DNA from: a virus
Virus record (IMG/VR): IMGVR_UViG_3300049259_000385
Location: 1 to 29,701 of that record
Strand: one strand, 5' to 3'
Length of the DNA: 29,701 bases
This document shows, in pieces, positions 3 to 13,453 of this stretch (its first letter is position 1; the number at the start of each line of letters is the position of its first letter). A program made the translations under genes and the position numbers. The notes beneath the pieces are model-generated. The model was given only the letters and a program-made list of their open reading frames with translations. It searched no databases and was not told where the DNA came from.

Positions 3-458
3 CGCGCGAACGCCGCCGCGGACGTGATCGGCGTCATCGACCAATTCATGCTGCGGTTCCAGTCCGACCTACTCGACGGCCGCGTGAAGACCGACAGCGC
101 AGCCGACTTCGATCGGATGGCGCGGTTGCGCGAGCTGATGAGCGGCGGCGCCGACGCGCGGCTCGAGCTGCAGGGTGGCCTGACGCTCGAGGCGATCCAG
201 GCACGCCATCGCGCGGTGCGCAGTCAGGTTGCGCAGCTCACGCCGGCGATCGCCGGCACTGCCGAGAGCGGGGTCGTGACGGAAAGCGAGGATCGTCCGT
301 CGACCGACCAACCTTCTGAGGCCGAGCTTCGCCCGGCCGTCGAGCGTGTGAACGCGGAAGACCCGGGCGCGCTGGCGATGGACGCCGAACTCGGTGAGGA
401 TGAGGTCGACCCGCAGCTCGGCGCGAGCAGCGAGCTCGCCGCGGATGGTGCGCCATGA
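3..458 (+). CDS. Probable small terminase subunit, C-terminal part (5' end outside window)
   Basis: The frame is open to the left edge of the window, so the gene probably starts further upstream; a GTG at 24 is the first start codon inside. The visible product has an amphipathic helical region (residues [18 protein letters not shown]) followed by [13 protein letters not shown], and then an acidic, Pro/Ala/Glu-rich tail with no fold of its own. This resembles the C-terminal half of Mu gp27-type small terminases, which recognise phage DNA and hand it to the large terminase. The resemblance is by memory of the family and not by alignment. It lies upstream of the large terminase, as expected, but a minus-strand recombinase and about 730 non-coding bases separate them. 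The stop codon overlaps an ATG at 455 that opens a long but unconvincing frame. Alternative: an unrelated phage protein. Confidence 0.5.
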
Positions 459-708
459 AGCCGGCCATCCGCCGCCGCGCGAGCTGCCGCTTCCTGACAA
501 AAGCGGCAGGTCGCGTTTCCCACGCCTCAAGATGTCGCGAGGTTGCACCGACGGGATCCGGCGCCTCTTCGGACGCGACCTGCCGCTTTCCTTCACCCGG
601 CGCGCGCGCGCCCCGTACCGCGAGGCCGCGCTGCTTCGCCGCCATCGACGCGGCAATCGCGTGGCTGCCCACAACCCGCGCCGCGTCGAGCTGGGGCCTA
701 CACCCCCC

Positions 709-728
709 GGGGGTCGATCCCCCATTTT
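709..728 (+). terminator. GC hairpin with T tail
   Basis: GGGGG (709-713) and CCCCC (719-723) form a perfect 5-bp stem around a TCGAT loop, followed directly by ATTTT. This has the form of a short intrinsic terminator for the small terminase transcript. The stem could also extend as part of a larger structured packaging region, since the preceding CCCCC can pair with the same GGGGG. Confidence 0.35.
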
Positions 729-812
729 CGGCGGGCGCGCCGGGCGTGCCCAATGCCGCTTCGCACCGGGCTCCAAACACGAAATTTGACAGCCCTCTAA
801 GTATCGAGAATC

Positions 813-851
813 CCGATTCCCGAAATTCGGAATCGGTCACTTTGGAAAGTG
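813..851. promoter_or_regulatory. Two adjacent palindromes, operator-like or attachment-arm-like
   Basis: CCGATTCC (813-820) and GGAATCGG (829-836) form a perfect 8-bp inverted repeat around an 8-base spacer. Overlapping it on the left, GAATC and GATTC (808-812 and 815-819) form another. Immediately to the right, CACTTT (838-843) and AAAGTG (846-851) are a perfect 6-bp inverted repeat around GG. The patch is AT-richer than its surroundings and has a TTGACA upstream at 786-791. Such clustering is typical of repressor operators or integrase/excisionase binding sites; which one applies is not known. Confidence 0.45.
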
Positions 852-1186
852 GATGGCGGCCGGCGGACCAGGACGCAGCGAATCAATTCTCGGTCTCGCT
901 CACCGCGCACACGGAGCCATCGTCACGGGCATCGACCGTCCATACCGAGTGGAGCAAGTCGAGCCGCGGCGACGGCGCCTCATTCACTTTCGTCGAGTGG
1001 TGTCCGCAATGCGGATTCGAAGACCCGGAACGGGGTCAACGCGGTGCCGATGAACTGCGATCGAATGAGTCGGCTGATGTGAACGCGGTGTCCACGTCCA
1101 CTACGCCAGTCACTTGCGACGCGTGGTCACCAGGCGCTACGCGCGACGTACGCGCCGCCGAGCGCGGCGCCTGCGAGCCACCGAGC

Positions 1187-1804
1187 TCAGCAGACCTGAT
1201 CCCGCATCGCGTCCTCGACCTCCTGGTCGCCGGGGACGATGTAGATCTCCGTGCTCCTCGGATCCTTGTGTCGGCCGATGATGCCGACGATGCGGGTGTC
1301 CCTCTTGCGGCGGTACAAGCTGGTCAAGGCCGTGTGGCGGAGCGCGTGGAACGTGTGGATGCGGTCGAAGCCGGCGCGCTCCTGCCAGGTGCGGAACATG
1401 AAGCGCACCGTCCTGGTCGCGATCCGCTGACGGAGCCTGGAGATGAACAGCGGCGCGTCGGGCTCGAGGCTCTCGCCGCGGGCCTTCTTCCACGCGATGA
1501 ACTTGGCGAGCTTGTAGGCCAGGGGCGGAGGCACGACGCAGAACTGAGCGGACCGATCGGTGTTCGATCGCTTGAACACACGCAGGTCGAAGCGCCCCTT
1601 GATCCGCCCGTCCGGGTGCATGATGTCTCCGACGTTCAGCGCGCAGATCTCGTGCTCGCGCAGCGCGGTGCCGAGGGCGAACGAGAAGAACACGTGGTCG
1701 CGGAAGCCATCCCGGTGCTTGCCGGTGACCCGAAGCAACAGGTCCACCTCCCTGTCGATCAAGGTGCGGGGCGGACGTCGAACGGTGGACACGTACGCGG
1801 CCAT
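1187..1804 (-). CDS. Minimal tyrosine recombinase (catalytic domain only)
   Basis: A 205-residue site-specific recombinase that cuts and rejoins DNA through a covalent phosphotyrosine. All catalytic positions are visible: Arg49 in GTALREHEI, a beta-hairpin Lys78 (VFKRSN), His153 and Arg156 in HALRHT, His179 in IGRHKD and the nucleophile Tyr188 in STEIYI. There is no N-terminal SAM-like core-binding domain: the catalytic fold begins within the first 20 residues, giving a size like FimB/FimE invertases and unlike typical 350-400-residue phage integrases. The ATG at 1804 is preceded on the minus strand by GGAGG with 7-base spacing, so the start is well supported. It is oriented against all the virion genes and lies between the terminase genes. 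It may serve as the prophage integrase or as an inversion/resolution enzyme. Confidence 0.88.
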
Positions 1805-3298
1805 AGCGATCCTCCGAATCAGACAGATAGATCCTCGTCAGAAGAAGGCAAGTCCACGGGCCCTCTCATCGTCGGCAAACGTGACGAAGGTGATCTGCTG
1901 GATTGGCTGGGCACCGAGCTCGGGTTCCTGACGGGTGTCGGTCACTACAACGAGGAACCGCTGGTCTTCGAGCCGTACCAGATCGCGTTTCTGTGTTCGA
2001 CGAGCCGGTACCGGTGGATCGAGAAGTCCCGCCAGGTCGGGTTCTCGTTCTTGTTCGCGTGCGAGGCGATGGCGCGCTGCCACCTGCGCGACGCGCACAC
2101 GGCGGTGATGGTGTCGTACAACCTCGAGGACGCCAAGGAGAAGGTGAACTACGCGCGGCAGCTCGCCGAAGAGCTGCCGCTGGCCTACCGAAAGAAGGTG
2201 GTGACCGACTCGAAGACCGAGCTCGGCTTCCTGTCCAACGGCTCGGCCCAGCGCGTGTCGCGCATCATCTCGAACCCCTCGAAGGCGCCGCGCGGCAAGA
2301 AGGGCGACCTCTACCTCGACGAGCTCGCTCACTACAGCAACGATCGCGAGGTCTACAAGGGCTCGACCGCGCTCATCCTGCGCTCGAATGGGCAGCTCAC
2401 CGGGTGCTCGTCGCCGCTCGGGCGCCGGGGCGTGTTCTGGGAGATCGCTCGCCAGGAGCAGCGGCAGTTCCGGGCGTACTGGCGCCAGCGGGTGCCGTGG
2501 TGGCTGTGCCGGTTCTTCTGCGTCGACGTGGCGCGCGCGGCCCAGGAAGCGCCGCTCATGCCCACCGAAGATCGCGTACGGACCTTCGGCACGCGGGACA
2601 TCCAGGACCAATTCGAGTCGCTGCCGCTCGAGGACTTCCAGGAGGAGTTCGAGGTCAGCTACAGCGACGAGAGCTACTCGTTCTATTCCTACGAGCTCAT
2701 CCTACCGTGCACGAGAGACGACCTCGTGCTCGCTGACGACTTCACGACGTTCGGCGACGTCGCGGGCCGGCTCGTGGCCGGCTTCGACGTCGGCCGCAAG
2801 CGCGACCTGTCGGAGCTATCGATCTTCGAGGAGATCAGCGGCAGGAAGATTTGCCGCATGCTCCGGACGTACGACCGGATCGAGTTCGCGGAGCAGGAAG
2901 GCGACCTGCGACGGATGCTCGACACGCTGCCGATCGCGCGGCTGTCGATCGACCAGAACGGCATCGGCATGCACCTGGCCGAGAACCTGCGCCGCGACCA
3001 TGCGCAGGTCGTGCCTGAGACGTTCACCAACGAGTCGAAGGAGATCTGGGCGACCGACTTCAAGATCCTCCTTCAGCGCAATGACGTCGTCTTGCCCAAG
3101 AACCGCGAGCTCGTCTCGCAGATCCACGGCGTCAAACGTCGGCTGACGCCGACGGGCAAGCCGTCGTTCGAAGTCGAGCGCGACCAAGACAGCAAGGGCC
3201 ACGGCGACAAGTTCTGGTCGGTGGCGCTCGCCTGCCAGAAGGAGCGGCGCCCGCTCCCCGATTCCACCAACGAGATCACCGCGAGGGTATTCGGATGA
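1715..3298 (+). CDS. Phage terminase large subunit (start uncertain)
   Basis: This is the packaging motor that pumps DNA into the prohead and cuts it. Visible features are a Q-motif-like FEPYQIAFL, a Walker A-like loop in [11 protein letters not shown], a Walker B-like strand [10 protein letters not shown], and an RNase H-fold nuclease with acidic residues in [24 protein letters not shown] and [12 protein letters not shown]. The order and motifs fit Mu gp28-like large terminases. Conserved sequence starts near 1895 and gives about 470 residues, a normal length. No in-frame ATG, GTG or TTG exists between 1718 and the Walker region. The nearest upstream canonical start is the GTG at 1715, with GGAAG 8 bases before it, inside the antisense recombinase gene; CTG codons at 1895/1898, preceded by GAAGGTG, are alternatives. 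The stop overlaps the next ATG. Confidence 0.9.
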
Positions 3299-3834: not shown

Positions 3835-4130
3835 TGCCGCGTCCCGATCGCATCCCGCTCGACGTCCCCGCCGCCGTCGGCGTCGGACAACCCACCAACG
3901 TGTTCCGGTTCCGCGACAAGACCGTCCTGATCTCGGGGAGCTTCGTCGGCGAGCTGCATCTCGAAGGCAGCATCGACGGCGAGTCGTTCGCGCCGCTCGG
4001 CGCGCCCGTCACGGCGCCGGGCTTCTTCCTTCTGCCCATGACCGTCGCGCACCTGCGCGTCGCGGTTACCCAGCTCACCTCCGGCACGCCGACCGCGATG
4101 TTCGCCGGGTTCGACTACCGGGCCCTGTAA
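3834..4130 (+). CDS. Small beta-rich protein, possible head-associated protein
   Basis: A 98-residue protein whose ATG at 3834 overlaps the previous stop. A GTG directly before it would add one residue. The sequence is a run of short beta strands with the pattern LHLEGSIDGESFAPL followed by MTVAHLRVAVTQLTSGTPTA. This resembles small beta-sandwich proteins encoded just before the portal in many phages, in which a 'signal of an individual measurement plus offset'-like DGxxFxPL turn recurs. A decoration or adsorption-related role is conceivable, but the family has no assigned function that I can name with confidence. It is coupled to the portal gene by a TAATG overlap. Confidence 0.6.
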   Translation: MPRPDRIPLDVPAAVGVGQPTNVFRFRDKTVLISGSFVGELHLEGSIDGESFAPLGAPVTAPGFFLLPMTVAHLRVAVTQLTSGTPTAMFAGFDYRAL

Positions 4131-6136
4131 TGAACGAGCGCGAGCACATCGACAGCGTCGTCGCGGGCTTTGACCCGGGCGCTGCCGTGCGCGAGCTCGC
4201 CGATCGAGTCGCGCTTGTGAAGGCGCAGGTCCTGGGGGGAGATCGCGCCGGCGCCGAGCGCATCGCCGACTCCAACGCCATGCCGTGGGCGGACATCGAC
4301 CAGCGCGAGCAGGCGTTCGCCGGGCTCGGCGTGGTCACGCCGCCGTACGACCCTGAGACGCTCGCCATCCTGTTCGAAAACTCGTCCGCGCTGAGACCGA
4401 ACGTCGACGCCTACGTCACGAACATCGACGCGTTCGGTCATCGCTTCGAGCCGGTCATCGACCTGGACGCCGATGATGCCGATCGGCGGATCGCCAACGC
4501 GCTGTTCATCGAGCGCGAGCGCGGCCAGGCCGACCCGCTGCGCGGGACCGATGCGACCGCCGAGGCGCTCGCGACGACGCCGAGCGCGGAGGAGGTCGCC
4601 GCGAAGAAAGCCGAGGTCGCCGCGCTCATGAGGCTCGAGCGTTCGCGCCTCGAGACCTTCTTCTCCTTCTGCGCCGCCGACATCTCGTTCGTCACCCTGC
4701 GCCGACGCACGCGGCAGGACGTCGAGGTGATGGGCAACGGCTACTGGGAGGTGCTGCGCAACGGCGCCGGCGACATCGTCCAGTTCGTCTACATCCCTGG
4801 CTTCACGATGCGGCTCCTGCCGACCGACCTCGAGTTCGTCGAGGTCGATAGCAAGGTGAAGATCTCCGAGCTGAGCTTCGACGTCGTGCGCGTCCGACGC
4901 CGGTTCCGCCGCTACGTCCAGATCTTCGAGGGGTTGCTCGTCTTCTTCAAGGAGCTGGGCGATCCGCGCGTCCTGTCGCGCAAGCACGGCGCCTTCTACG
5001 CAACCGTCGACGAGCTGCTCGCGCAGGACCCGACCGACGGACCGGCGACGGAGATCCTCCACTTCAGGCTCCACAATCCGCGCTCGGCGTACGGCACGCC
5101 GCGGTGGATCGGCACGCTGCTCGCGGTGCTCGGCTCGCGCCAAGCCGAGGAGATCAACTACCTCTACTTCGAGAACAAGAGCGTGCCGCCGTTGGCCTTG
5201 CTGGTCTCGGGCGGTCGGCTGTCGGCGCAGTCCGTCCCGCGCATCGAGAGCTTTATCGAGACCCACCTCAAGGGGAAGAAAAACTTTCACAAGATCTTGG
5301 TGTTGGAAGCGGAGGCCGGCGGCGGAGCCAACCTCGATCACACCGGCCGGATGAAGATCGAGCTGCGCCCGCTCACCGGCGCGCAGCAGAACGACTCGTT
5401 GTTCCAGAACTACGACGAGCGCAACGCCGACAAGATCGGCCAGTCGTTCCGCCTGCCGCGGCTGCTCCGCGGTGACATCCGCGACTTCAACCGATCGACC
5501 GCCGACGCCGCGCTGACGCTGGGCGAAATGCAGGTGTTCCAGCCCGAGCGCGAGGAGTTCGACTTCGTCGTCAACCACCGCATCCTCGCCGAGCTCGGGA
5601 TCCGGTTCTGGCGCTTTCGGTCGAACTCGCCCGTGACGCGCGACCCGGCGGCGATGGCAGACATCGTCCGCTCGCTCACAAACGCCAACGTTCTGACGCC
5701 CGAGGAAGGCCGCGCGCTCGCCGGCGACGTGTTCAACCGCGAGCTCAAGCCGATCTCCGCCGGCTGGGTGAAGCAGCCGGTGGCGCTCACCCTCGCCGGC
5801 ATCCCGCCAACGCCAGAGCCGCAACGGACGGTGCCCGCGCCGGACGTCCAAAAGCAGGACGCCTCGACGGCAGATCTCGCCGCGTCCGGCGGCCTGCTGT
5901 CGCCGGCGCAAGATCTTCTACCCGCGCGTCGTCGCCGCCATCGAGACGCGCCGTCCTGGGACCTCGTCGGCGAAGCCACGCGGCTGATCGCATTGCGCGA
6001 CGCCCTCCGCGAGGCCGAGCGCCGGCACGTCGACCAGGAGTTCCACGCTGACAAACGCGCCGAGCTCGAGCGCGAAGTGATCAAGGTGCCCGCCGACGAG
6101 CTGGCGAGCTGGTTTGCCTCCGAAAGCACACGATGA
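4130..6136 (+). CDS. Phage portal protein (PBSX/XkdE-like)
   Basis: A 668-residue portal: the dodecameric ring at one capsid vertex through which DNA enters and leaves, and onto which the neck is built. The N-terminal region PPYDPETLAILFENSSALRP followed by NVDAYVTNIDAFGHRF is characteristic of PBSX-type portals. Then come the clip/wing segment with NGYWEVLRN and VYIPG, and the stem region AEEINYLYFENKSVPPLALL. The length is greater than the usual 450-550 residues: about 100 C-terminal residues are Pro/Arg-rich and then helical (ALREAERRHVDQEFHADKR), forming an extra domain of unknown use. The start overlaps the previous stop and the stop overlaps the glycosyltransferase ATG, so expression is tightly coupled. 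Confidence 0.92.
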   Translation: MNEREHIDSVVAGFDPGAAVRELADRVALVKAQVLGGDRAGAERIADSNAMPWADIDQREQAFAGLGVVTPPYDPETLAILFENSSALRPNVDAYVTNIDAFGHRFEPVIDLDADDADRRIANALFIERERGQADPLRGTDATAEALATTPSAEEVAAKKAEVAALMRLERSRLETFFSFCAADISFVTLRRRTRQDVEVMGNGYWEVLRNGAGDIVQFVYIPGFTMRLLPTDLEFVEVDSKVKISELSFDVVRVRRRFRRYVQIFEGLLVFFKELGDPRVLSRKHGAFYATVDELLAQDPTDGPATEILHFRLHNPRSAYGTPRWIGTLLAVLGSRQAEEINYLYFENKSVPPLALLVSGGRLSAQSVPRIESFIETHLKGKKNFHKILVLEAEAGGGANLDHTGRMKIELRPLTGAQQNDSLFQNYDERNADKIGQSFRLPRLLRGDIRDFNRSTADAALTLGEMQVFQPEREEFDFVVNHRILAELGIRFWRFRSNSPVTRDPAAMADIVRSLTNANVLTPEEGRALAGDVFNRELKPISAGWVKQPVALTLAGIPPTPEPQRTVPAPDVQKQDASTADLAASGGLLSPAQDLLPARRRRHRDAPSWDLVGEATRLIALRDALREAERRHVDQEFHADKRAELEREVIKVPADELASWFASESTR

Positions 6137-7251
6137 AGGACCGTCCCCACCACCTACAACCCCGCATCGCCACGGTGCGCGTCGCGCTCGTTTACCGCGA
6201 CTTCGGGAGCGGCGTCTCCCATGTCGGGCTCGGCGTGACCGCCCAGTACACCGCCAAGACCCTTCGCCATCACGACATCTGGGCCGAGGTCTGGCCCACG
6301 CGAAGCGCGTCGGCGCTCGCGGAGCGGCTCCGCGCAACCGCGCGCGCCGCGCAACAGAAGGGCCAGGTCGAGACGACCCACGTCATCTTGGCGGCTCCCT
6401 GGCTCGAGACTTCCGACGTCGCCTCGCTCGCCGCCGAGTTCTCCGAGGTCAACTTCGTCGTCGTGTCCCATTCGTCCGTCGGCTTTCTTGCTGCGGACCC
6501 GCACGCCATCCGCCTGCTTCGGCAGACCGCGGACCTGCAGTTGGCCACGCACAACGTGTTCGTCGGGGCCAACTCGAAGAAGTTCAGCGACTGGGCGACG
6601 GCGGCGTGGGGCGTCCATGCCGTGTGCCTACCGAACCTCTACTCGCTCGCCGAGGTGTTCAAGTCGCGCAACCGGCGCTGGGACGGAGGCCCGTTGAGGC
6701 TTGGCCTGTTCGGGGCCAACAGGCCGCTCAAGAACTTCCTGTCGGGCGCCGCCGCCGCGGTCGAGCTCGCGACGCGGCTCCACGTCCCCGTCGAGCTGCT
6801 GCTGTCCAGCGGCAGAAACGAGGGCGGCAACTTCTTGGCGCTCGAGGAGCTCACGGAGAAGGTCGGCAACCTGAAGCTGACCTACACCGACTGGCTGCCG
6901 TGGGCCGAGTTCCGTCGCCTGGTCCGCACCGTCGACCTCGTGCTCCAGGTCTCGTACACCGAAACCTTCAACGTCGTGTGCGCCGACGCGATCGCCGAGG
7001 GCGTGCCGGTGGTCGCGAGCGATGCGATCGACTGGGTGCCGGACTGGTGGCGCGCGCGCGCCGACGAGCCGATGGACGTCGCGCGCGTGGCCGAGCGCCT
7101 GCTGCGCGATCCGAACGCGTCGAGCAATGGCCGCGAGGCGCTACAAGCCTACGTCGACCGTGGCGTCGTGATGTGGTGGCAGTTCCTCTGCCCACAGCTC
7201 GCCACGATGGCCGGCGCCGCGGCGCCGCAACACGTGGCGACCGACCGGTGA
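6133..7251 (+). CDS. GT-B fold glycosyltransferase (GT4-like) within the head operon
   Basis: A 372-residue predicted sugar transferase using an activated nucleotide sugar. The C-terminal Rossmann domain is clear: LRLGLFGANRPLKN (donor-phosphate Lys200) and ETFNVVCADAIAEGVPVVAS (residues 277-296), the E-x7-E-type nucleotide-sugar motif of GT4 enzymes, with Asp in place of the second Glu. The N-terminal domain carries RVALVYRDFGSGVSHVG and FVVVSHSS. There is no signal peptide or membrane segment, so it should be cytoplasmic. It is locked between portal and head-morphogenesis genes by ATGA and GTGA overlaps, which argues for a role in modifying virion protein or, less likely, DNA or host surface sugar. 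The acceptor cannot be read from sequence. Confidence 0.87.
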   Translation: MKDRPHHLQPRIATVRVALVYRDFGSGVSHVGLGVTAQYTAKTLRHHDIWAEVWPTRSASALAERLRATARAAQQKGQVETTHVILAAPWLETSDVASLAAEFSEVNFVVVSHSSVGFLAADPHAIRLLRQTADLQLATHNVFVGANSKKFSDWATAAWGVHAVCLPNLYSLAEVFKSRNRRWDGGPLRLGLFGANRPLKNFLSGAAAAVELATRLHVPVELLLSSGRNEGGNFLALEELTEKVGNLKLTYTDWLPWAEFRRLVRTVDLVLQVSYTETFNVVCADAIAEGVPVVASDAIDWVPDWWRARADEPMDVARVAERLLRDPNASSNGREALQAYVDRGVVMWWQFLCPQLATMAGAAAPQHVATDR

Positions 7252-8300
7252 GCGCGGAGCTCTACGCAGACGGCGCCGTAGCGGCCGAGCACATCCTGGC
7301 GGACGTGTACCGGCTCGACGTCGCCAAGGCGCGCGATCCGCTGGATGACCGCGACTTCCTGGCCATCGTGCAGCGCTTCGCACGCGTGCTGGCGGGTGTC
7401 GCGCGCGGCGCGGAGGCCAAGGCGCTGCGCGAGGCGCTCGTCGTGCTCGACGTCGACTGGGCGGCGCTGACACCGGCGGCGCGCGAGCGCGTCGTGCGCG
7501 CCGCTCGAGCCTCCCTCGATGGCCTGGGCGCCCAGATCTTGCCGCGCATCGACCACGTGTTCGCCGTGGAGGCCCCCGCGCTCGTCGCCACCTCGCGCCG
7601 CGCCACGACGCGCCGGTTCGGCCTCCACATCCAGGCGTCGACGATGCACACCGACGCGCGGATCGCCGCCTTCGTGCGCCGCAGCGAGGGGCTCTTCATC
7701 CGCGATCAGTACGGCCGTCGACAGGACGAGCTCGCGCAGCGCGCCCGCGATGTGGTGGCGACCGGGCTCGCGCAGGGCCTCGGGCGCGACGACATCGCCT
7801 CCCAGCTCGCGGCCAAGCTCGGGCCCACGGTCAGCCGCGGCATGTCCTACTGGCAGGTCGTCGCGATGAGCTTCGCGAACCGTGGCAGAACGTACGCCCA
7901 GCTCGCCGCGTTCGAGGATGCCGGCATCGAGCGCTTCCGCTTCGAAGCCGTCCTCGACCAGGTCACCAGCAACGTGTGCAGGTTCATGCACGGCCGCGTG
8001 TTTACCGTCGAGCGCGCGATGCAGCGCTTCGACGACGTCGAGCGCGCGAGTGACCCTGCGCAGATCGCTGACCTCCAGCCGTGGATGCGCACCGGCGCCG
8101 ATGACGACGGACATCAGGTGCTGTTCTACGAGCGGGCCGGTCAACGCCACCCGGTCGCGCGCGTCGCGGAATCCGCGGTGGGAACGTCGGATCGCACAGG
8201 CCGCTACTCGCACGCGCTCACCAACGACCAGCTCGAGGCCGCCGGTCTCATGACGCCACCCTTGCATGGTCGCTGCCGGTCGACCCTGGTGACCGAATGA
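7248..8300 (+). CDS. Head morphogenesis / minor head protein (Mu gpF, SPP1 gp7-like)
   Basis: A 350-residue protein starting at GTG 7248, overlapping the glycosyltransferase stop (GTGA); a longer frame upstream is the shadow of that gene. The C-terminal half shows the Mu F/SPP1 gp7 signature: FRFEAVLDQVTSNVCRFMHG, then FYERAGQRHPV, and LMTPPLHGRCRSTL near the end, the Cys/His arrangement typical of this family. The N-terminal half is helical. Family members bind the portal and are packaged in small numbers, acting in prohead assembly or DNA ejection. The position directly after the portal module is the expected one. The stop overlaps the next ATG. Confidence 0.88.
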   Translation: MSAELYADGAVAAEHILADVYRLDVAKARDPLDDRDFLAIVQRFARVLAGVARGAEAKALREALVVLDVDWAALTPAARERVVRAARASLDGLGAQILPRIDHVFAVEAPALVATSRRATTRRFGLHIQASTMHTDARIAAFVRRSEGLFIRDQYGRRQDELAQRARDVVATGLAQGLGRDDIASQLAAKLGPTVSRGMSYWQVVAMSFANRGRTYAQLAAFEDAGIERFRFEAVLDQVTSNVCRFMHGRVFTVERAMQRFDDVERASDPAQIADLQPWMRTGADDDGHQVLFYERAGQRHPVARVAESAVGTSDRTGRYSHALTNDQLEAAGLMTPPLHGRCRSTLVTE

Positions 8301-8596
8301 CGACCGGGGCGTCAGTGCTCGCGGTGTTCGGTCCGGAGGCGCTTGGCCAGGTCACGCTCAGCATCGAGCGCGCCGTGGCGGGAAGCTTCGAGGCGGATCA
8401 CGCACGGATGACGGCGACGGAGGTGCGCCGTCGATTCGACCTTTGCCTCCGGTTGGCGACGCAGTTGCGGGCCGACCTCGGCTGGGGCCTGCAGCGTGTC
8501 CTCGACCGGCTGCCGCACTACCTCCGCTGCGAGCTCGACGGCCAGCCTTGGGAGCCCGATCGCCGAACCATTTGGATGCCCGAGGACGGGCAGTAA
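8297..8596 (+). CDS. Small phage protein of unknown function
   Basis: A 99-residue protein coupled to the head-morphogenesis gene by ATGA. It is mostly helical (VRRRFDLCLRLATQLRADLG, then LQRVLDRLPHYLRCEL) and ends with a short Trp-containing tail. No domain is recognised. It has no signal peptide or membrane segment. By position between minor head protein and head-core genes it is likely a head assembly accessory, which is inference from context only. Confidence 0.65.
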   Translation: MTTGASVLAVFGPEALGQVTLSIERAVAGSFEADHARMTATEVRRRFDLCLRLATQLRADLGWGLQRVLDRLPHYLRCELDGQPWEPDRRTIWMPEDGQ

Positions 8597-8606
8597 CCGG
8601 AGAACC

Positions 8607-9281
8607 ATGAAGCCGAACATGACGACGATGCTGGATGAGATCTCGAGGTCGATCGAGAAGACCGTCCGCGCTCACCACGGGGTGCGCGACACCAAGAAGC
8701 GCATGACGCTGCGCGCCTTCGTGCCCTACGCGCTCACGCAGCTGCAAAAGGCTGGCGCCGAACAGCAGGACCTGGCCACGCGCAGGCTCGACGCGCTCAA
8801 GCGCAGCGTGGACCAGGTCGCCGCGCGCGTCGCCAAGCTCAACCCCGAGGACCTCGACAGCGAGAAGATCACCGTCGAGGTCGAGACCGCGTACGCCCCA
8901 ACGGGCGGGCCGCAGATCGACGGGCTCACGACCGCACCGGACCAGAGCAGTACCGAACGGGCGTTGACCTCGGTCGGCGCCGCCTCGGGCGACACGAACT
9001 TCGCGCAGAACCTCACCGAGGCTGTGAAGGCGCTCCAAAAGATCAAGGAGGGCCTCGAGCCCGCGCCGAAGAACGCTGCCGCAGCGAACCAGCCCGCCGG
9101 CAGCGACAAACCGCGGCGGTCCGCCGCGGCCAAGGCCACGGACGGCGGCGACGCAGCGAGCGAGCCCGGCTGGCCGCTCGACCTCAACACCGGCGCGTTC
9201 CGGGACGGTGTCACCAAGGCGGAAGACGAACCCATCTGGGGCTTCGATCCCGATGGCGTCCGGTCCGCCAAGGCGGAGTAG
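8607..9281 (+). CDS. Head-core-like protein with C-terminal WPLD motif
   Basis: A 224-residue protein from ATG 8607 (GGAGAA just upstream); the longer in-frame extension overlaps the previous gene and is not protein-like. Residues 1-75 are helical and charged with coiled-coil character (LDEISRSIEKTVRAHHG, RRLDALKRSVDQVAARVAKL). The middle is low-complexity Ala/Pro/Lys. The C-terminus contains WPLDLN followed at fixed distance by RDGVTKA (codons 9171-9221). The same pattern with identical spacing ends the scaffold-like protein encoded at 11172-12491. This suggests a shared docking tail and a role as prohead core or scaffold partner; no named family is recognised. Confidence 0.65.
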   Translation: MKPNMTTMLDEISRSIEKTVRAHHGVRDTKKRMTLRAFVPYALTQLQKAGAEQQDLATRRLDALKRSVDQVAARVAKLNPEDLDSEKITVEVETAYAPTGGPQIDGLTTAPDQSSTERALTSVGAASGDTNFAQNLTEAVKALQKIKEGLEPAPKNAAAANQPAGSDKPRRSAAAKATDGGDAASEPGWPLDLNTGAFRDGVTKAEDEPIWGFDPDGVRSAKAE

Positions 9282-9287
9282 CTCGCC

Positions 9288-10988
9288 ATGGCGGCCGTCG
9301 ACGACGCCATGAAGCGCGCGCGCGCGTTCTTGCACGACTTGTCACCGCGAAGGCGTGGCGAGACGTCGAAGCGTGCCTCGGTTCCGCACGATCCGCCGGC
9401 GGACCCGCGCCAGCTCGTGTTGCCGCACGTCAAGATCGCCGCGGCCCCGGGCACCCACACGATCCGCAAGACGATCTGGTCCTCGCCCGCCGGCAAGAAG
9501 CACCTGGCCCCTCGACTCGTCAAGCTCATCCCACCTCACAGGACCTACGTCGAGCCGTTCGCCGGCAGTGGCGCTTTCTTTTTCGCGAAGCAGCCCTCCG
9601 CTGTCGAGGTGCTCGGGGACGCCGATCCGGAGATCGCCGCGGCGTACAAAGCGCTGACCTCGTTGACCGACCGCGAGCTCGCCGCGCTCAAAGAGAAAGA
9701 CTGGATCGGCCGCAAGTCGACCTTCGAAGGGCTCAAGAAGACGGCGCCGCGAAGCACGGCCGACAAGCTGTATCGCTTCCTGTACCTGTCGCGCTTCGCC
9801 TACGGCAAGTTTCGCGGCACGACGTTCAACACCGCGGACGAGGGCGCGCGCTCGCGCGCGATCTCGCGCATCGAGCGGTACCGAGATCGCCTTCGCGAAG
9901 TGAAGGTGCGCTCCGCGCACTACGCGGATGTGGTGCGGGAGTTCGATGGCCCGGACACGTTCTTCTTCCTGGATCCTCCCTACCCTGGCTACAACGCCTT
10001 GGTCGGCGAGAAGCAGTTCGACGAGCTCGAGTTCCGCAAGGTGCTCGACGGCATCAAGGGCAAGTTCCTGGCTACGTACGGCACGCGCGGCGCGCTCGAC
10101 ACCAACGGCTTTCACGTCAAGAAGCTTCGGCCGCGGCGCATCATCGCATCGATGCACGGCTCTGCCGGTCCCCGCAGGCTGACGCAGCTCCTGATCTCGA
10201 ACTACGCCATCAGCCGAAAATCACTCGGCTCATCCTGGCTCGACGACATCGAAGGAGAGCTGGCCATGACGTCGGCGAGCGCGGCGGACGTGTACCACGC
10301 GCACGCCCTGGCGAAGGCGCTGGCCGAACGGACACCTGACTCGTCGCTGATCCCGCCGCTCGGCGCACTCGTGGCGGCGTTCGACATGCTGGAGCCGACC
10401 GAGGACGAGAGCTCGCACGCATTGGCGCGTGCGCTCCTGCCCATCACGGACCGCCTCTCGCCAACGATGCGCGGCTCGCGCAGCGTCACCGCGGCGCTGC
10501 AGGGCGCGCGGCCGGCGCTTGTAGCGCTCGCGAAGGTGGAACCAGATCCCCGAGCGTCTCGGTCAACGGCTGACGAGGGCGGGCGCCCCGCCGCTCTCGA
10601 GCGCGCGCTGGACAAACGAATCCCGCTCCTGAAAACCGAGGACGAACGCTACGTCCTTGGCGTCGTGCTCGAGCCCGAGACCGTCGATTCGCAAAACGAC
10701 GTCTACTCGGCCGCGGAGGTGCGCGCGGCGGCGCATCGGTTCCTCGAGGCCTTCGGGAACGTCGGCCTGATGCACCAGGGCTACGTCAACGACAAGGTGA
10801 AGATCATCGAGTCGTACCTGGCACCGGTCGACTTCGAGATCGCAGGCGCGCGGGTCAAGAAGGGAACGTGGCTACTGGCAGTCCACGTCCTAGATGACGA
10901 GCTGTGGGAGCTCATCAAGTCCGGCGAGCTCACAGGGCTATCGATGGGCGGCTCCGCACGGCGCGAGGAGGCTAGCGAGACACCATAG
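9288..10988 (+). CDS. DNA adenine methyltransferase (D12 class) fused to XkdF-type prohead protease
   Basis: A 566-residue two-domain protein. Residues about 45-325 are a D12-class N6-adenine methyltransferase: S-adenosylmethionine motif EPFAGSGA (89-96) and catalytic DPPY (229-232) are both intact, along with the insertion region LYRFLYLSRFAYGKF. After a variable helical linker (330-445), residues 450-560 match the XkdF putative serine protease fold: YVLGVVLEPETVDSQNDVYS, a His at 496 (GLMHQ), IIESYLAP, KKGTWLLAVHV and the Ser-containing GLSMGG (552). XkdF proteins mature the prohead core. No frameshift or stop separates the domains. The neighbours are head-core genes, so the protease role fits its context; the methyltransferase probably modifies phage or host DNA. 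The ATG at 9288 has a GGAG about 9 bases upstream. Confidence 0.85.
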   Translation: MAAVDDAMKRARAFLHDLSPRRRGETSKRASVPHDPPADPRQLVLPHVKIAAAPGTHTIRKTIWSSPAGKKHLAPRLVKLIPPHRTYVEPFAGSGAFFFAKQPSAVEVLGDADPEIAAAYKALTSLTDRELAALKEKDWIGRKSTFEGLKKTAPRSTADKLYRFLYLSRFAYGKFRGTTFNTADEGARSRAISRIERYRDRLREVKVRSAHYADVVREFDGPDTFFFLDPPYPGYNALVGEKQFDELEFRKVLDGIKGKFLATYGTRGALDTNGFHVKKLRPRRIIASMHGSAGPRRLTQLLISNYAISRKSLGSSWLDDIEGELAMTSASAADVYHAHALAKALAERTPDSSLIPPLGALVAAFDMLEPTEDESSHALARALLPITDRLSPTMRGSRSVTAALQGARPALVALAKVEPDPRASRSTADEGGRPAALERALDKRIPLLKTEDERYVLGVVLEPETVDSQNDVYSAAEVRAAAHRFLEAFGNVGLMHQGYVNDKVKIIESYLAPVDFEIAGARVKKGTWLLAVHVLDDELWELIKSGELTGLSMGGSARREEASETP

Positions 10989-11043: not shown

Positions 11044-11072
11044 TTGACAGATATAGTGAAGTCCCATAGTGT
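11044..11072 (+). promoter_or_regulatory. Sigma70-type promoter for the scaffold/capsid unit
   Basis: TTGACA (11044-11049) is followed after 17 bases by TAGTGT (11067-11072). The intergenic region is AT-richer than the flanking genes. Transcription would begin near 11079 and run through the two-hairpin element before reaching the GTG at 11172. The distance from -35 to the start codon is 128 bases, against 127 for the equivalent promoter at 17201. Confidence 0.6.
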
Positions 11073-11099
11073 CACGAGTGTGGTGCGGATAGCCCCACT

Positions 11100-11162
11100 G
11101 GGTAGTTGAGGACACTCAAGCCCCGACGATGACGAAGAGTCACGTCGGGGCTTTTTGCGTTT
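11100..11162 (+). promoter_or_regulatory. Two-hairpin leader element, copy B
   Basis: GGGTAG is followed by TTGAG (11106-11110) pairing with CTCAA (11115-11119). Then AGCCCCGAC (11119-11127) pairs perfectly with GTCGGGGCT (11144-11152), with an inner stem TGAC/GTCA (11130-11133 and 11139-11142), and TTTTTGCGTTT follows. The second hairpin is a textbook intrinsic terminator, yet it lies downstream of the promoter and only 10-20 bases before the next gene, so it would act as an attenuator. The terminator loop sequence differs from copies A and C, while the stems are kept. Confidence 0.78.
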
Positions 11163-11171
11163 CGAGGACCT

Positions 11172-12491
11172 GTGACCGACGACGCGACCGACACAACCAA
11201 GGCACAGCCCGACGCCGATGGTGGCGTGCACCGGCTGCGCGACATCCTCGTCGAGGAGGTGTCGTTGGTCGACCGAGCCGCGAACCTGCGCACGTTCCTC
11301 GTCGTGAAAAGGAGCCACATGGCCAAATCTCAAGCGGCGAGCAAGGACAGCGACAACGCCTCGCAAGGTGCGAAGAAGAACAAGGCAAAGACGCAGGCCA
11401 GCACGAAGGCAGGCCGAGGCAAGCGCAAAGCTCGTGGCGCCGCCAACATCAATGGCGAGATCGATAGGGCCGCGAAGGCCAACGGCGACGCCGCTCAGAA
11501 GGCCACCAAGGCCGACAAGGACAACGACGGGGCTGAGAAAGCCAATGATGACGAGGACAACGAGGACGAAGACAACGAGGACGAAGACAACGAAGACGAG
11601 ACCGAGAAAGTCGACGACGAGGACGATGACGAGGCCGACAAGGCCGACGACGACGAGTACGACGACGAGGCCGACAAGGCCGATGATGAAGAGGACGACG
11701 ACGAGGCCGACAAGGCCGACGACAAGGCGAACAAAGCCGGAGGCTATCAAGCTCCCCGCGGCAAGCGCCCGCCGCCACCCAAGAAGGCAGCCAAGGCGGA
11801 CGGTGATGGCGACGGCGATGACGCCGATAGCGACGATGACGCCGATAGCGACGATGACACCGACGGTGGCGATAGCGGCGACGACACCGCCGTCGTGCTG
11901 TCCGACGACGCGAAGAACACCATCCTGGGAACGCTGACGCAGGTGCTTCAGCGGCTGGTCGCATTCGCCGACCGGATCAAGGATGCGGATTCGCCGAGCG
12001 ACGGAGCGACGGCGTACGTGCCATCCGATCTCACAGAGGAGCTCGGCGACATCGGCGAGCTCCTCGAGGGCGTCAGCGAACGCCTGCCAACGACCAAAGC
12101 GGTCGCCAAGGGCGGCGCACGCATGGCCAAAGAGCGGCTTCAGCGCTTCGAGAAGGCCATCGAGCTGCTCTCGCAAGTGCTCAAGGAGCTGACCGACAGC
12201 AATCCCAACAAAGGATCGACTGCCGGCGCATCAGCCAAGACCATCAAGCGGGACGTGCCGGGCATGGACGCCCTCGTGGCCAACGTCGCGCAGCTGCTGA
12301 CCGTCGTCAAGCAACAGCAAGAGGATCTCGGTCGCGTTCGCAAATCACACGCGACGTCGAACGCGCTCCTCGTAGAAGGGACACGCGATCGTCGGGCGCC
12401 CGCCGACGTGTCGTGGCCGCTCGACATGAACCGGCCGATCTCACGAGACAGCGTGGCGAAGGCGATCTCGTTCTACGACGACGCCGAGTAA
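11172..12491 (+). CDS. Scaffold-like prohead core protein with XkdF-family N-terminal motif and acidic tract
   Basis: A 439-residue protein from GTG 11172 (GAGG at 11164-11167). Residues 17-45 contain [20 protein letters not shown], the N-terminal signature usually joined to XkdF or other prohead proteases; here the protease domain is in the preceding gene. Residues about 50-120 are Ala/Lys-rich, about 126-188 are a long Asp/Glu tract with repeats of DEADKADD, and about 215-240 are a second acidic run. Residues 245-439 are helical with leucine-rich segments, ending in WPLDMN...RDSVAKA. The position just before the major capsid gene, the high charge and the helices fit an assembly scaffold. 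It is the first gene behind promoter and element B. Confidence in the exact role is moderate. Confidence 0.7.
11547..11735 (+). repeat. Degenerate tandem repeats encoding an acidic tract
   Basis: The DNA consists of variants of GAGGACAACGAGGACGAA and GACGAGGCCGACAAGGCC. The products are DEDNE-type and DEADKADD-type units. Imperfect copy identity suggests expansion by slippage or recombination, followed by divergence. A shorter relative (GCCGATAGCGACGATGAC) lies at about 11822-11855. Confidence 0.7.
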
Positions 12492-12502
12492 GGAGTACCC
12501 CG

Positions 12503-13453
12503 ATGGGCATTGGTCTGTTGGACAATCGAACCATCCTGGAGAAGGCCGACCTCGCCCTCTCCGATCTCACCGCCGGGGGCGGCATCTTGCAGCCCGCGCA
12601 AGCCCAGAAGTTCTTGCGAATCTTGATCAACGAGGCGGTCGTCCTCAAGCAGGCGACGGTCACCCCCATGCGGTCGCCGAAGCAGTTGATCGAGAAGATC
12701 CGCTTCGCCAATCGCATCCTGCGCGCCGGCGCCGAGGCGACGCCGCTCGCGGCGGCAGATCGAGCGGCGCCCAACCTGGGCCAGGTCGAGCTCGACGCGC
12801 AGCTCTTCAAGGCCGAGGTCCGCTTGTCGAACGAGATCCTCGAGGACTCGGTCGAGCGAGGGCAGCTGCGGCAGACGATCTTGCAGCTCATGGCTGAGGC
12901 CATCGCGCGCGACGTCGACGAGGTCGTCATTCAAGGCGAGAAGGGGAGCGGTGATCCATTCCTCGGTCGGCTGGACGGAATCCTCAAGCAGGCGCAGTCG
13001 AACATCGTCGACGCGCAGAACCAGACCGCGAACAAGGGCGTGTTCCGCGACATGCTCAAGACGATGCCGCACCCGTTCGTGCGGAATAAGAAGCAGCTCC
13101 GCTTCTTGACCTCCGTGAACGCGGAGATCGACTACAAGGACTCGCTCTCCGAGCGCGCCACCGTCGGCGGCGACAAGTACGTCGAGGATGACGTGTCGGC
13201 GACGTACTCCGGTGTGCCGGTGCTCTCGGTGCCGATGTTCCCCGAGGCGCAAGGCGCCGGCGGCAACGCGACCAGCATCGTGCTCACCGACCCCAAGAAC
13301 ATCAACGTCGGGATCTGGCGGCAGATCCGGATCGAGACCGACAAGCTGGTCTCCGACGGCGTGCTCATCGTCGTCGCGACGCTGCGCTTCGATGTGAAAT
13401 ACGCGGAAGAAACCGCCGTCGTCAAGGCGGTGAACTGTCGGGTGGCGGCCTGA
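12503..13453 (+). CDS. Major capsid protein (HK97 fold)
   Basis: A 316-residue capsid subunit. The ATG at 12503 has an AAGGAG at 12490-12495, one of the strongest ribosome binding sites in the window, as expected for the most abundant virion protein; an in-frame extension upstream overlaps the scaffold gene and is spurious. Family-typical segments are an N-terminal helix ([17 protein letters not shown]), the E-loop/P-domain region [20 protein letters not shown], the spine helix [20 protein letters not shown] and the A-domain [14 protein letters not shown], ending with a beta-strand region. It follows the scaffold-like gene and precedes the capsid-associated small proteins. No long N-terminal delta domain is present, consistent with a separate scaffold. 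Confidence 0.92.

Follow-up and report, generated by a model that had tools for sequence, protein, structure and literature searches.

A Dam-like adenine methyltransferase and an XkdF prohead protease share one reading frame in a group of phages and may form a polyvalent cargo protein

Introduction

Polyvalent proteins combine several enzymatic domains on one polypeptide in portal-terminase phages, with N6-adenine methylases and 2H phosphoesterases among their listed cargo; assemblin-like peptidases occur at C-termini of these proteins and were proposed to act in processing during assembly (Iyer et al. 2017, PMC5512222). A second related system is that of phage P1, in which the head protein DarB includes a methylase that acts in cis to protect DNA (PMC5512222). 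The N-terminal 30 residues of DarB are enough to target a reporter to the head, and the P1 prohead protease, Pro, is a separate protein that is not fused to DarB (PMC9024508). DarB is the experimental precedent for protection of DNA by a head-borne methylase.

Canonical XkdF-scaffold proteases (phrog_3017, for example Lactococcus phage 28201 gp33) carry a Peptidase_S78_2 domain, are encoded between the portal and capsid genes, and combine the elements VDxAAN, XkdF and scaffold, in that order, in one gene. XkdF of PBSX is another example. The polyvalent concept dates from that 2017 paper and already covers C-terminal assemblin-like peptidases; the family of XkdF proteins with tandem methyltransferases is apparently undescribed in the open-access literature, in which no description of XkdF fused to methyltransferases or ligases was found.

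Here we examine a protein of this kind, P0001, encoded by a 29,701-nucleotide viral DNA (the window; IMG/VR record IMGVR_UViG_3300049259_000385), together with its relatives, which are designated by L numbers. As with polyvalent proteins, P0001 is a multi-enzyme polypeptide of a portal-terminase phage with a head-protease-type peptidase at its C-terminus, and the family as a whole combines several distinct enzymatic domains per polypeptide with a late-gene context. Unlike the proteins of that survey, the peptidase here appears to be the sole XkdF protease of the phage and lies in the standard protease slot; XkdF is absent by name from the main text of the survey, and we found in it no account of XkdF preceded by as many as three Dam-like methyltransferases in a row or by LigD-PE/ATP-ligase modules (PMC5512222). 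P0001 shares an adenine methylase with the P1 Dar system, whose enzyme is carried in the head and implicated in shielding DNA from restriction by the next host. In contrast to P0001, the DarB methylase is coupled to a SWI2/SNF2 helicase and uses an N-terminal capsid-targeting signal, within a system that includes DarA and Hdf; no helicase domain was found in P0001 or in the relatives scanned. P0001 resembles the canonical proteases in its Peptidase_S78_2 domain and gene position, but its XkdF domain follows a methyltransferase and VDxAAN opens a separate scaffold gene.

Results

The preliminary description of this locus placed an adenine methyltransferase and an XkdF protease in one frame without a stop, and this reading was confirmed. 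The P0001 frame has an ATG start, 0 internal stops and a length of 566 aa, and both domains scored above their Pfam cut-offs: MethyltransfD12 (PF02086) at residues 69-234 (E 1.3e-14, 55 bits against a cut-off of 22) and Peptidase_S78_2/XkdF (PF14550) at residues 449-561 (E 1.5e-28, 99.8 bits against 24). The motifs quoted in that description, EPFAGSGA, DPPY, H496 and GLSMGG, were found where it had placed them (Table 1).

Table 1. Coordinates in the window of the fusion gene, its elements and the neighboring head genes
Feature	Position	Strand	Basis or remark
Terminase large subunit	1871..3298	+	Conserved part of ORF 455-3298
Portal protein, PBSX-type	4130..6136	+	Family matches
MuF-like minor head protein	7206..8300	+	Family matches; start approximate
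P0002, gene upstream of fusion	8607..9281	+	ORF opens at 8496, likely start 8607; C-terminal WPLDLN
Fusion gene P0001	9288..10988	+	566 aa; N-terminal adenine methyltransferase, linker, C-terminal XkdF prohead protease
N-terminal amphipathic helix	9291..9335	+	Residues 2-16, conserved, precedes methyltransferase core; contains MKRARAFL
D12/Dam-like N6-adenine methyltransferase domain	9459..10223	+	Residues ~58-312; PF02086, phrog_56/phrog_13242, Foldseek
Motif I EPFAGSGA (SAM binding)	9552..9575	+	Residues 89-96, direct reading
Motif IV DPPY (catalytic)	9972..9983	+	Residues 229-232, direct reading
K311-S312, candidate release site	10218..10223	+	Methyltransferase/linker edge; speculative
Variable helical linker	10224..10625	+	Residues 313-446
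XkdF/Peptidase_S78_2 domain	10626..10967	+	Residues 447-560; PF14550, viral structure library matches
K449-T450, second candidate cut site	10632..10637	+	Near-invariant Lys just before protease core; speculative
D467 of XkdF	10686..10688	+	Invariant, 83/83 XkdF copies
H496 of XkdF, presumed catalytic His	10773..10775	+	Invariant, 83/83 copies
S552, presumed nucleophile	10941..10943	+	In GLSMGG (550-555); 82/82 copies with a residue at this column
Leader between fusion and scaffold gene	11044..11160	+	TTGACA promoter-like box at 11044; terminator-like hairpin and T-run at ~11118-11156
P0003, probable scaffold	11172..12491	+	Weak phrog_3017 match; acidic middle; C-terminal WPLDMN...RDSVAKA
Major capsid protein, HK97-like	12503..13453	+	Family matches

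In an AlphaFold2 model of P0001 the methyltransferase part was confident (pLDDT mostly 85-98), the protease part was of moderate confidence and the linker helices (~317-416) were of low confidence. By Foldseek the methyltransferase part matched E. coli Dam (4rtn; E 3.6e-12, target TM 0.72), with further matches to T4 Dam, Mcbe1 and DpnM. P0001 shares the fold and motifs I and IV with E. coli Dam, T4 Dam and DpnM, but it scored below the cut-off of the Dam subfamily TIGR00571 (62.6 against 114.85 bits, NCBIfam), and it is therefore Dam-like rather than Dam proper. No avoidance of GATC that would give a clue to the specificity of the enzyme was found in the window (262 sites observed against 270 expected). 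The XkdF model matched solely predicted viral XkdF models in a viral structure library; a fold search of the model against the PDB gave no match with E <= 0.001, and a search of the XkdF sequence against solved structures gave no significant match, leaving a fold relation to the HK97 or herpesvirus assemblin proteases unsupported. Between P0001 and its relative L008, amino acid identity was 71% in the methyltransferase, 77% in XkdF and 44% in the linker, and nucleotide changes within both domains fell mostly at third codon positions. The N-terminal helix was also present in the AlphaFold2 model; A7, R10, A11 and L15 were invariant among six aligned fusions, and a similar extension was found in many single-methyltransferase fusions. 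This helix is a possible targeting element.

When the window terminase was used as a query, 13 related virus contigs were recovered. The same methyltransferase was encoded on 8 of these; in 7 it was fused in frame to XkdF, and in the eighth (L019) the gene runs off the end of the fetched locus. GTDB genomes and IMG/VR were then scanned with alignments, supplemented by profile searches; early single-sequence scans had missed the fusion family, which the alignment-based scans recovered. The domain order had been proposed for a check in other phages, and 82 contig-nonredundant relatives (78 distinct sequences) from IMG/VR viruses and bacterial genomes proved to have both domains in one frame and in this order. 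The bacterial genomes were mostly Myxococcota, including isolates of Myxococcus, Corallococcus and Citreicoccus; the host of the window virus is probably among soil myxobacteria. In seven myxobacterial isolate genomes all PF14550 matches fell in frames of 452-882 aa, the length of fusions, and no other XkdF frame was found in these genomes or in the loci of the close relatives of the window. No fusion was found in characterized phages or plasmids among 50,697 phage and 72,556 plasmid records. A family of unknown function, phrog_13242 (450 aa), matched the Myxococcus prophage fusion L044 end to end (E 6.9e-303) and is the same fusion, on record but unnamed; the window protein differs from it in having a longer helical linker.

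A stricter recount across all fetched loci gave 130 fused loci and 4 with the two domains on separate frames, in a sample that includes duplicates and is biased because fusions seeded the scans. No case of a methyltransferase downstream of XkdF was found in this recount. The preliminary description had allowed that relatives might encode the two as separate genes and that the frame might be an assembly error. Separate genes as the norm were rejected with only 4 such loci, and an artefact of assembly or annotation was likewise rejected, its probability being negligible, because the same frame recurs in independent metagenomes and in isolate genomes. The union had also been called unexpected. 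The fusion itself stands, but it is less isolated than supposed: within this phage group such fusions are the norm, and they fit the published polyvalent-protein concept (PMC5512222).

The catalytic motifs of the methyltransferase were conserved across the family, with E89 and G93 of motif I present in 114 of 114 alignable copies and, in motif IV, PP in 118 of 118 and D and Y each in 116 of 118. By profile, 53 of the 82 fusions carried one methyltransferase domain, 21 carried two and 8 carried three; at least one of the proteins counted with two (L073) seems to have a single domain that the profile divided. XkdF was followed by no more than 32 aa in 80 of the 82, and the distance from the end of the methyltransferase profile to XkdF ranged from 44 to 1124 aa among the relatives. 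In two-copy proteins, position-matched copies were 70-80% identical between proteins, as compared with only 34% between copy 1 and copy 2. Thus, the tandem copies are distinct and stably inherited, and they are consistent with recognition of different target sequences. The window methyltransferase was closest to copy 1 of L021 (72%), followed by the single-copy proteins L008 and L011 (70-71%); its identity to the second copy in the three-copy proteins L022, L025 and L026 was 64-67%.

In many loci the gene order was terminase, portal, (glycosyltransferase-like frame), MuF, (P0002), fusion, scaffold and major capsid. Given this recurring order, the fusion occupies the usual protease slot. The window also has a tail-sheath gene, which identifies the phage as contractile-tailed. 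The glycosyltransferase-like frame (window 6133-7251, between portal and MuF; recognized by eye, with no support from family searches) was 73-76% identical in L008, L011, L012, L013, L021, L022, L116 and L124, and is an unusual passenger for a head cluster. In L021 a 1093-aa protein is encoded between fusion and scaffold (L021:10745-14026); its HEAAH zincin-type motif resembles, by eye, DUF4157 domains seen with contractile injection systems. P0002 and the scaffold, which flank the fusion, have a common C-terminal WP-D-[LM]-N peptide, as do their counterparts in many relatives, often followed by WGxDP in the upstream gene and by R(E/D)SVxKAxSF in the scaffold. This peptide is possibly a shared head-docking element.

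The fusion and the scaffold gene matched adjoining parts of phrog_3017, a head maturation protease family: P0001 residues 440-564 matched positions 35-159 and P0003 residues 21-52 matched positions 4-35, the latter weakly (E 0.05). These matches suggest that an ancestral protease-scaffold gene was split. In L029 the VDxAAN/scaffold part lies downstream of XkdF in the same frame. The same matches would fit a neutral fusion, in which the two activities are independent in one frame as a by-product of late-gene rearrangement and the VSLVDRAAN segment, normally at the N-terminus of the protease-scaffold product, has come to head the scaffold gene. We regard this as very improbable, since the arrangement persists across wide divergence (XkdF identity to the window domain drops to about 27% across the family), extra methyltransferases and other enzymes have been gained repeatedly, and split forms are rare.

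Between the fusion and the scaffold gene lies a leader with the layout GGGTnGTTGA...TCAAGCCCCG hairpin CGGGGCTTTTTGCGTTT, right ahead of the ribosome-binding site, so that a terminator-like hairpin stands directly 5' of a presumably highly expressed scaffold gene. The leader is kept in 11 relative sequences, with two hairpin pairs changed on both sides; the relatives with it are L008, L012, L021, L022 (two places), L100, L102, L188, L193, L199 and L213. The TTGACA box upstream of the hairpin is present in the window, L008 and L022. An Rfam scan of the window gave no match. With this leader, scaffold and capsid could be expressed apart from the fusion, and presumably more strongly.

Enzymes other than methyltransferases were found ahead of XkdF. 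An ATP-dependent DNA ligase was present in the XkdF-terminated relatives L015, L026, L122, L123, L140, L187, L191, L200, L220, L232 and L243, with or without methyltransferases. Many XkdF-terminated relatives carried a QxHFRGKSxHxDLR region similar to the LigD 3'-phosphoesterase. Its matches to solved LigD-PE structures were weak (E 0.008), as was a Pfam match to LigD_N in L167. Residues 106-239 of L167 form a 2H phosphoesterase with both H-x-T motifs, and residues 1238-1306 of L112 matched the anti-Thoeris protein Tad3 (Pfam, E 1.8e-8), a match to be taken with caution; both may be counter-defence cargo. XkdF-terminated proteins of ~1300-2200 aa (L015, L185, L187, L191, L200, L220, L222, L232, L243 and L026) carried LigD-phosphoesterase-like and/or ATP-ligase domains, in some cases together with methyltransferases and in some with a Pol-beta-like GSxxN...DID motif. 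They look like particle-borne DNA end-repair proteins. Two BFVD entries named "zeta toxin domain containing" (A0A6J5PIT0 and A0A6J5KKZ6) matched the XkdF model, suggesting another type of XkdF-fused cargo. Given the variety of enzymes ahead of XkdF, the window protein is a simple member of a larger XkdF-terminated class, whose upstream domains are nucleic-acid enzymes and possibly anti-defence ones.

This variety bears on the main rival to carriage in the head, namely that the fusion merely couples the methyltransferase to late expression: the enzyme would act in the cytoplasm of the producer cell on replicating or not yet packaged DNA and then be cleaved off or excluded, so that progeny DNA would carry its methylation before reaching the next host. 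Phages also encode enzymes of this type, with one Dam-like domain whose motifs are intact, as free proteins (hundreds of records with homologues), and a position in the late cluster also fits an enzyme acting on phage DNA before packaging. Left unexplained are the ligase, phosphoesterase and 2H cargo in the same slot and a partner that is always the prohead protease, with XkdF at the C-terminus. We therefore consider methylation confined to the producer cell unlikely, at perhaps one chance in five.

Candidate sites for release of the cargo were sought in the linkers. No long conserved cleavage sequence was found there, and the recurrent element was a dipeptide of Lys and a small residue. Lys followed by Ala, Ser or Thr lay within 12 aa of the last methyltransferase strand in 65 of 108 fused copies, as compared with 3 of 20 stand-alone methyltransferases, many of which simply end at that strand. 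Lys-small or Lys-Gly preceded the XkdF core in most sequences, Lys-Ala-Asp was present in the capsid protein N-terminus of 91 of 102 homologues, and Lys-Ala/Ser was found in many scaffold C-termini. Within linkers, 38% of Lys residues preceded a small residue against 21% in domains, a comparison uncorrected for relatedness, and several edges lacked the dipeptide. Lys-small could be a shared cut site, and we retain it as a hypothesis. Alternatively, XkdF might dock the enzyme in the prohead and the protein might stay whole in the virion, with proteolysis reserved for scaffold and capsid. The N4 virion RNA polymerase, which is packaged uncleaved and needs its peptidase-domain region for encapsidation (PMC5512222), speaks for such targeting without release, as do linkers that lack an obvious long common cleavage sequence; the catalytic positions of XkdF are all invariant and Lys-small dipeptides recur at domain edges, which make it a rather improbable outcome.

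Stand-alone XkdF proteins were found under a misleading name. In Pakpunavirus and related records, XkdF proteins of ~156-210 aa without a methyltransferase domain are labelled "DNA methyltransferase", for example NC_015294.2 gene PAK_P100003 (Pseudomonas phage PAK_P1) and MN988459.1 EVB27_142; phrog_1530 has the same label in PHROG. Two phage matches with this name were considered as fusions and rejected, as both are stand-alone proteases whose length leaves no room for a methyltransferase domain. PaP1 ORF48, a stand-alone XkdF homologue, was suspected of being a methyltransferase from BLAST matches to Haliangium, Myxococcus, Stigmatella and Lactococcus proteins (PMC4177049). The myxobacterial matches are plausibly fusions like those described here, and the label is likely to be annotation spill-over from such fusions.

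Discussion

Across the family, methyltransferase and protease share a single frame in a conserved order, keep their catalytic motifs and occupy the protease slot, and the cargo varies while XkdF remains C-terminal. We propose, with a probability of about 0.6, that P0001 is an XkdF-terminated polyvalent cargo protein whose protease would load the methyltransferase into the head and then free it there. Of the options raised in the preliminary description, transport into the prohead followed by self-cleavage in the linker is the best supported, because XkdF is C-terminal, its catalytic residues are kept, the gene lies in the protease slot and other relatives have different nucleic-acid enzymes in the same place.

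The model that we infer comprises packaging, self-cleavage, ejection, methylation activity and an anti-restriction role. The C-terminal XkdF domain would be the prohead protease of the phage, and since it must join the prohead with portal and scaffold, anything fused ahead of it would be carried inside. During maturation the protease would process the scaffold and capsid proteins and cut its own linker, so that the Dam-like methyltransferase would end up free in the head alongside the DNA. This enzyme could then modify phage DNA while still inside the particle or, more probably, once the DNA enters the next host, and the methylation would protect against restriction. Methylation of DNA as it enters, as suggested previously, would be one option; action before packaging or after injection appears equally open. 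In relatives the same slot holds two or three methyltransferases, which belong to different lineages, or modules for LigD-like end repair and ligation.

More tentatively, at somewhat less than even odds, XkdF may be a general module for loading and release, which would take whatever enzyme precedes it into the prohead and free it by cuts at Lys-small sites. The capsids of this family of phages would then serve as enzyme-delivery vehicles: along with the DNA, the host would receive mixed methyltransferases with several specificities at once, LigD-like end-repair and ligase enzymes, and domains that degrade or bind signals.

The fusions offer an explanation for a widespread database error, in which many stand-alone XkdF proteins are called DNA methyltransferases. 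If the proposed model is correct, these phages would load their cargo by building it into the maturation protease, and the fusion itself would set both stoichiometry and release. Phages with tandem methyltransferases would be expected to resist several restriction systems simultaneously, and those with ligase variants to have their entering DNA repaired or circularized by particle-borne enzymes. The family would thus offer a simple means of testing which enzymes tailed phages deliver with their DNA, a long-standing question.
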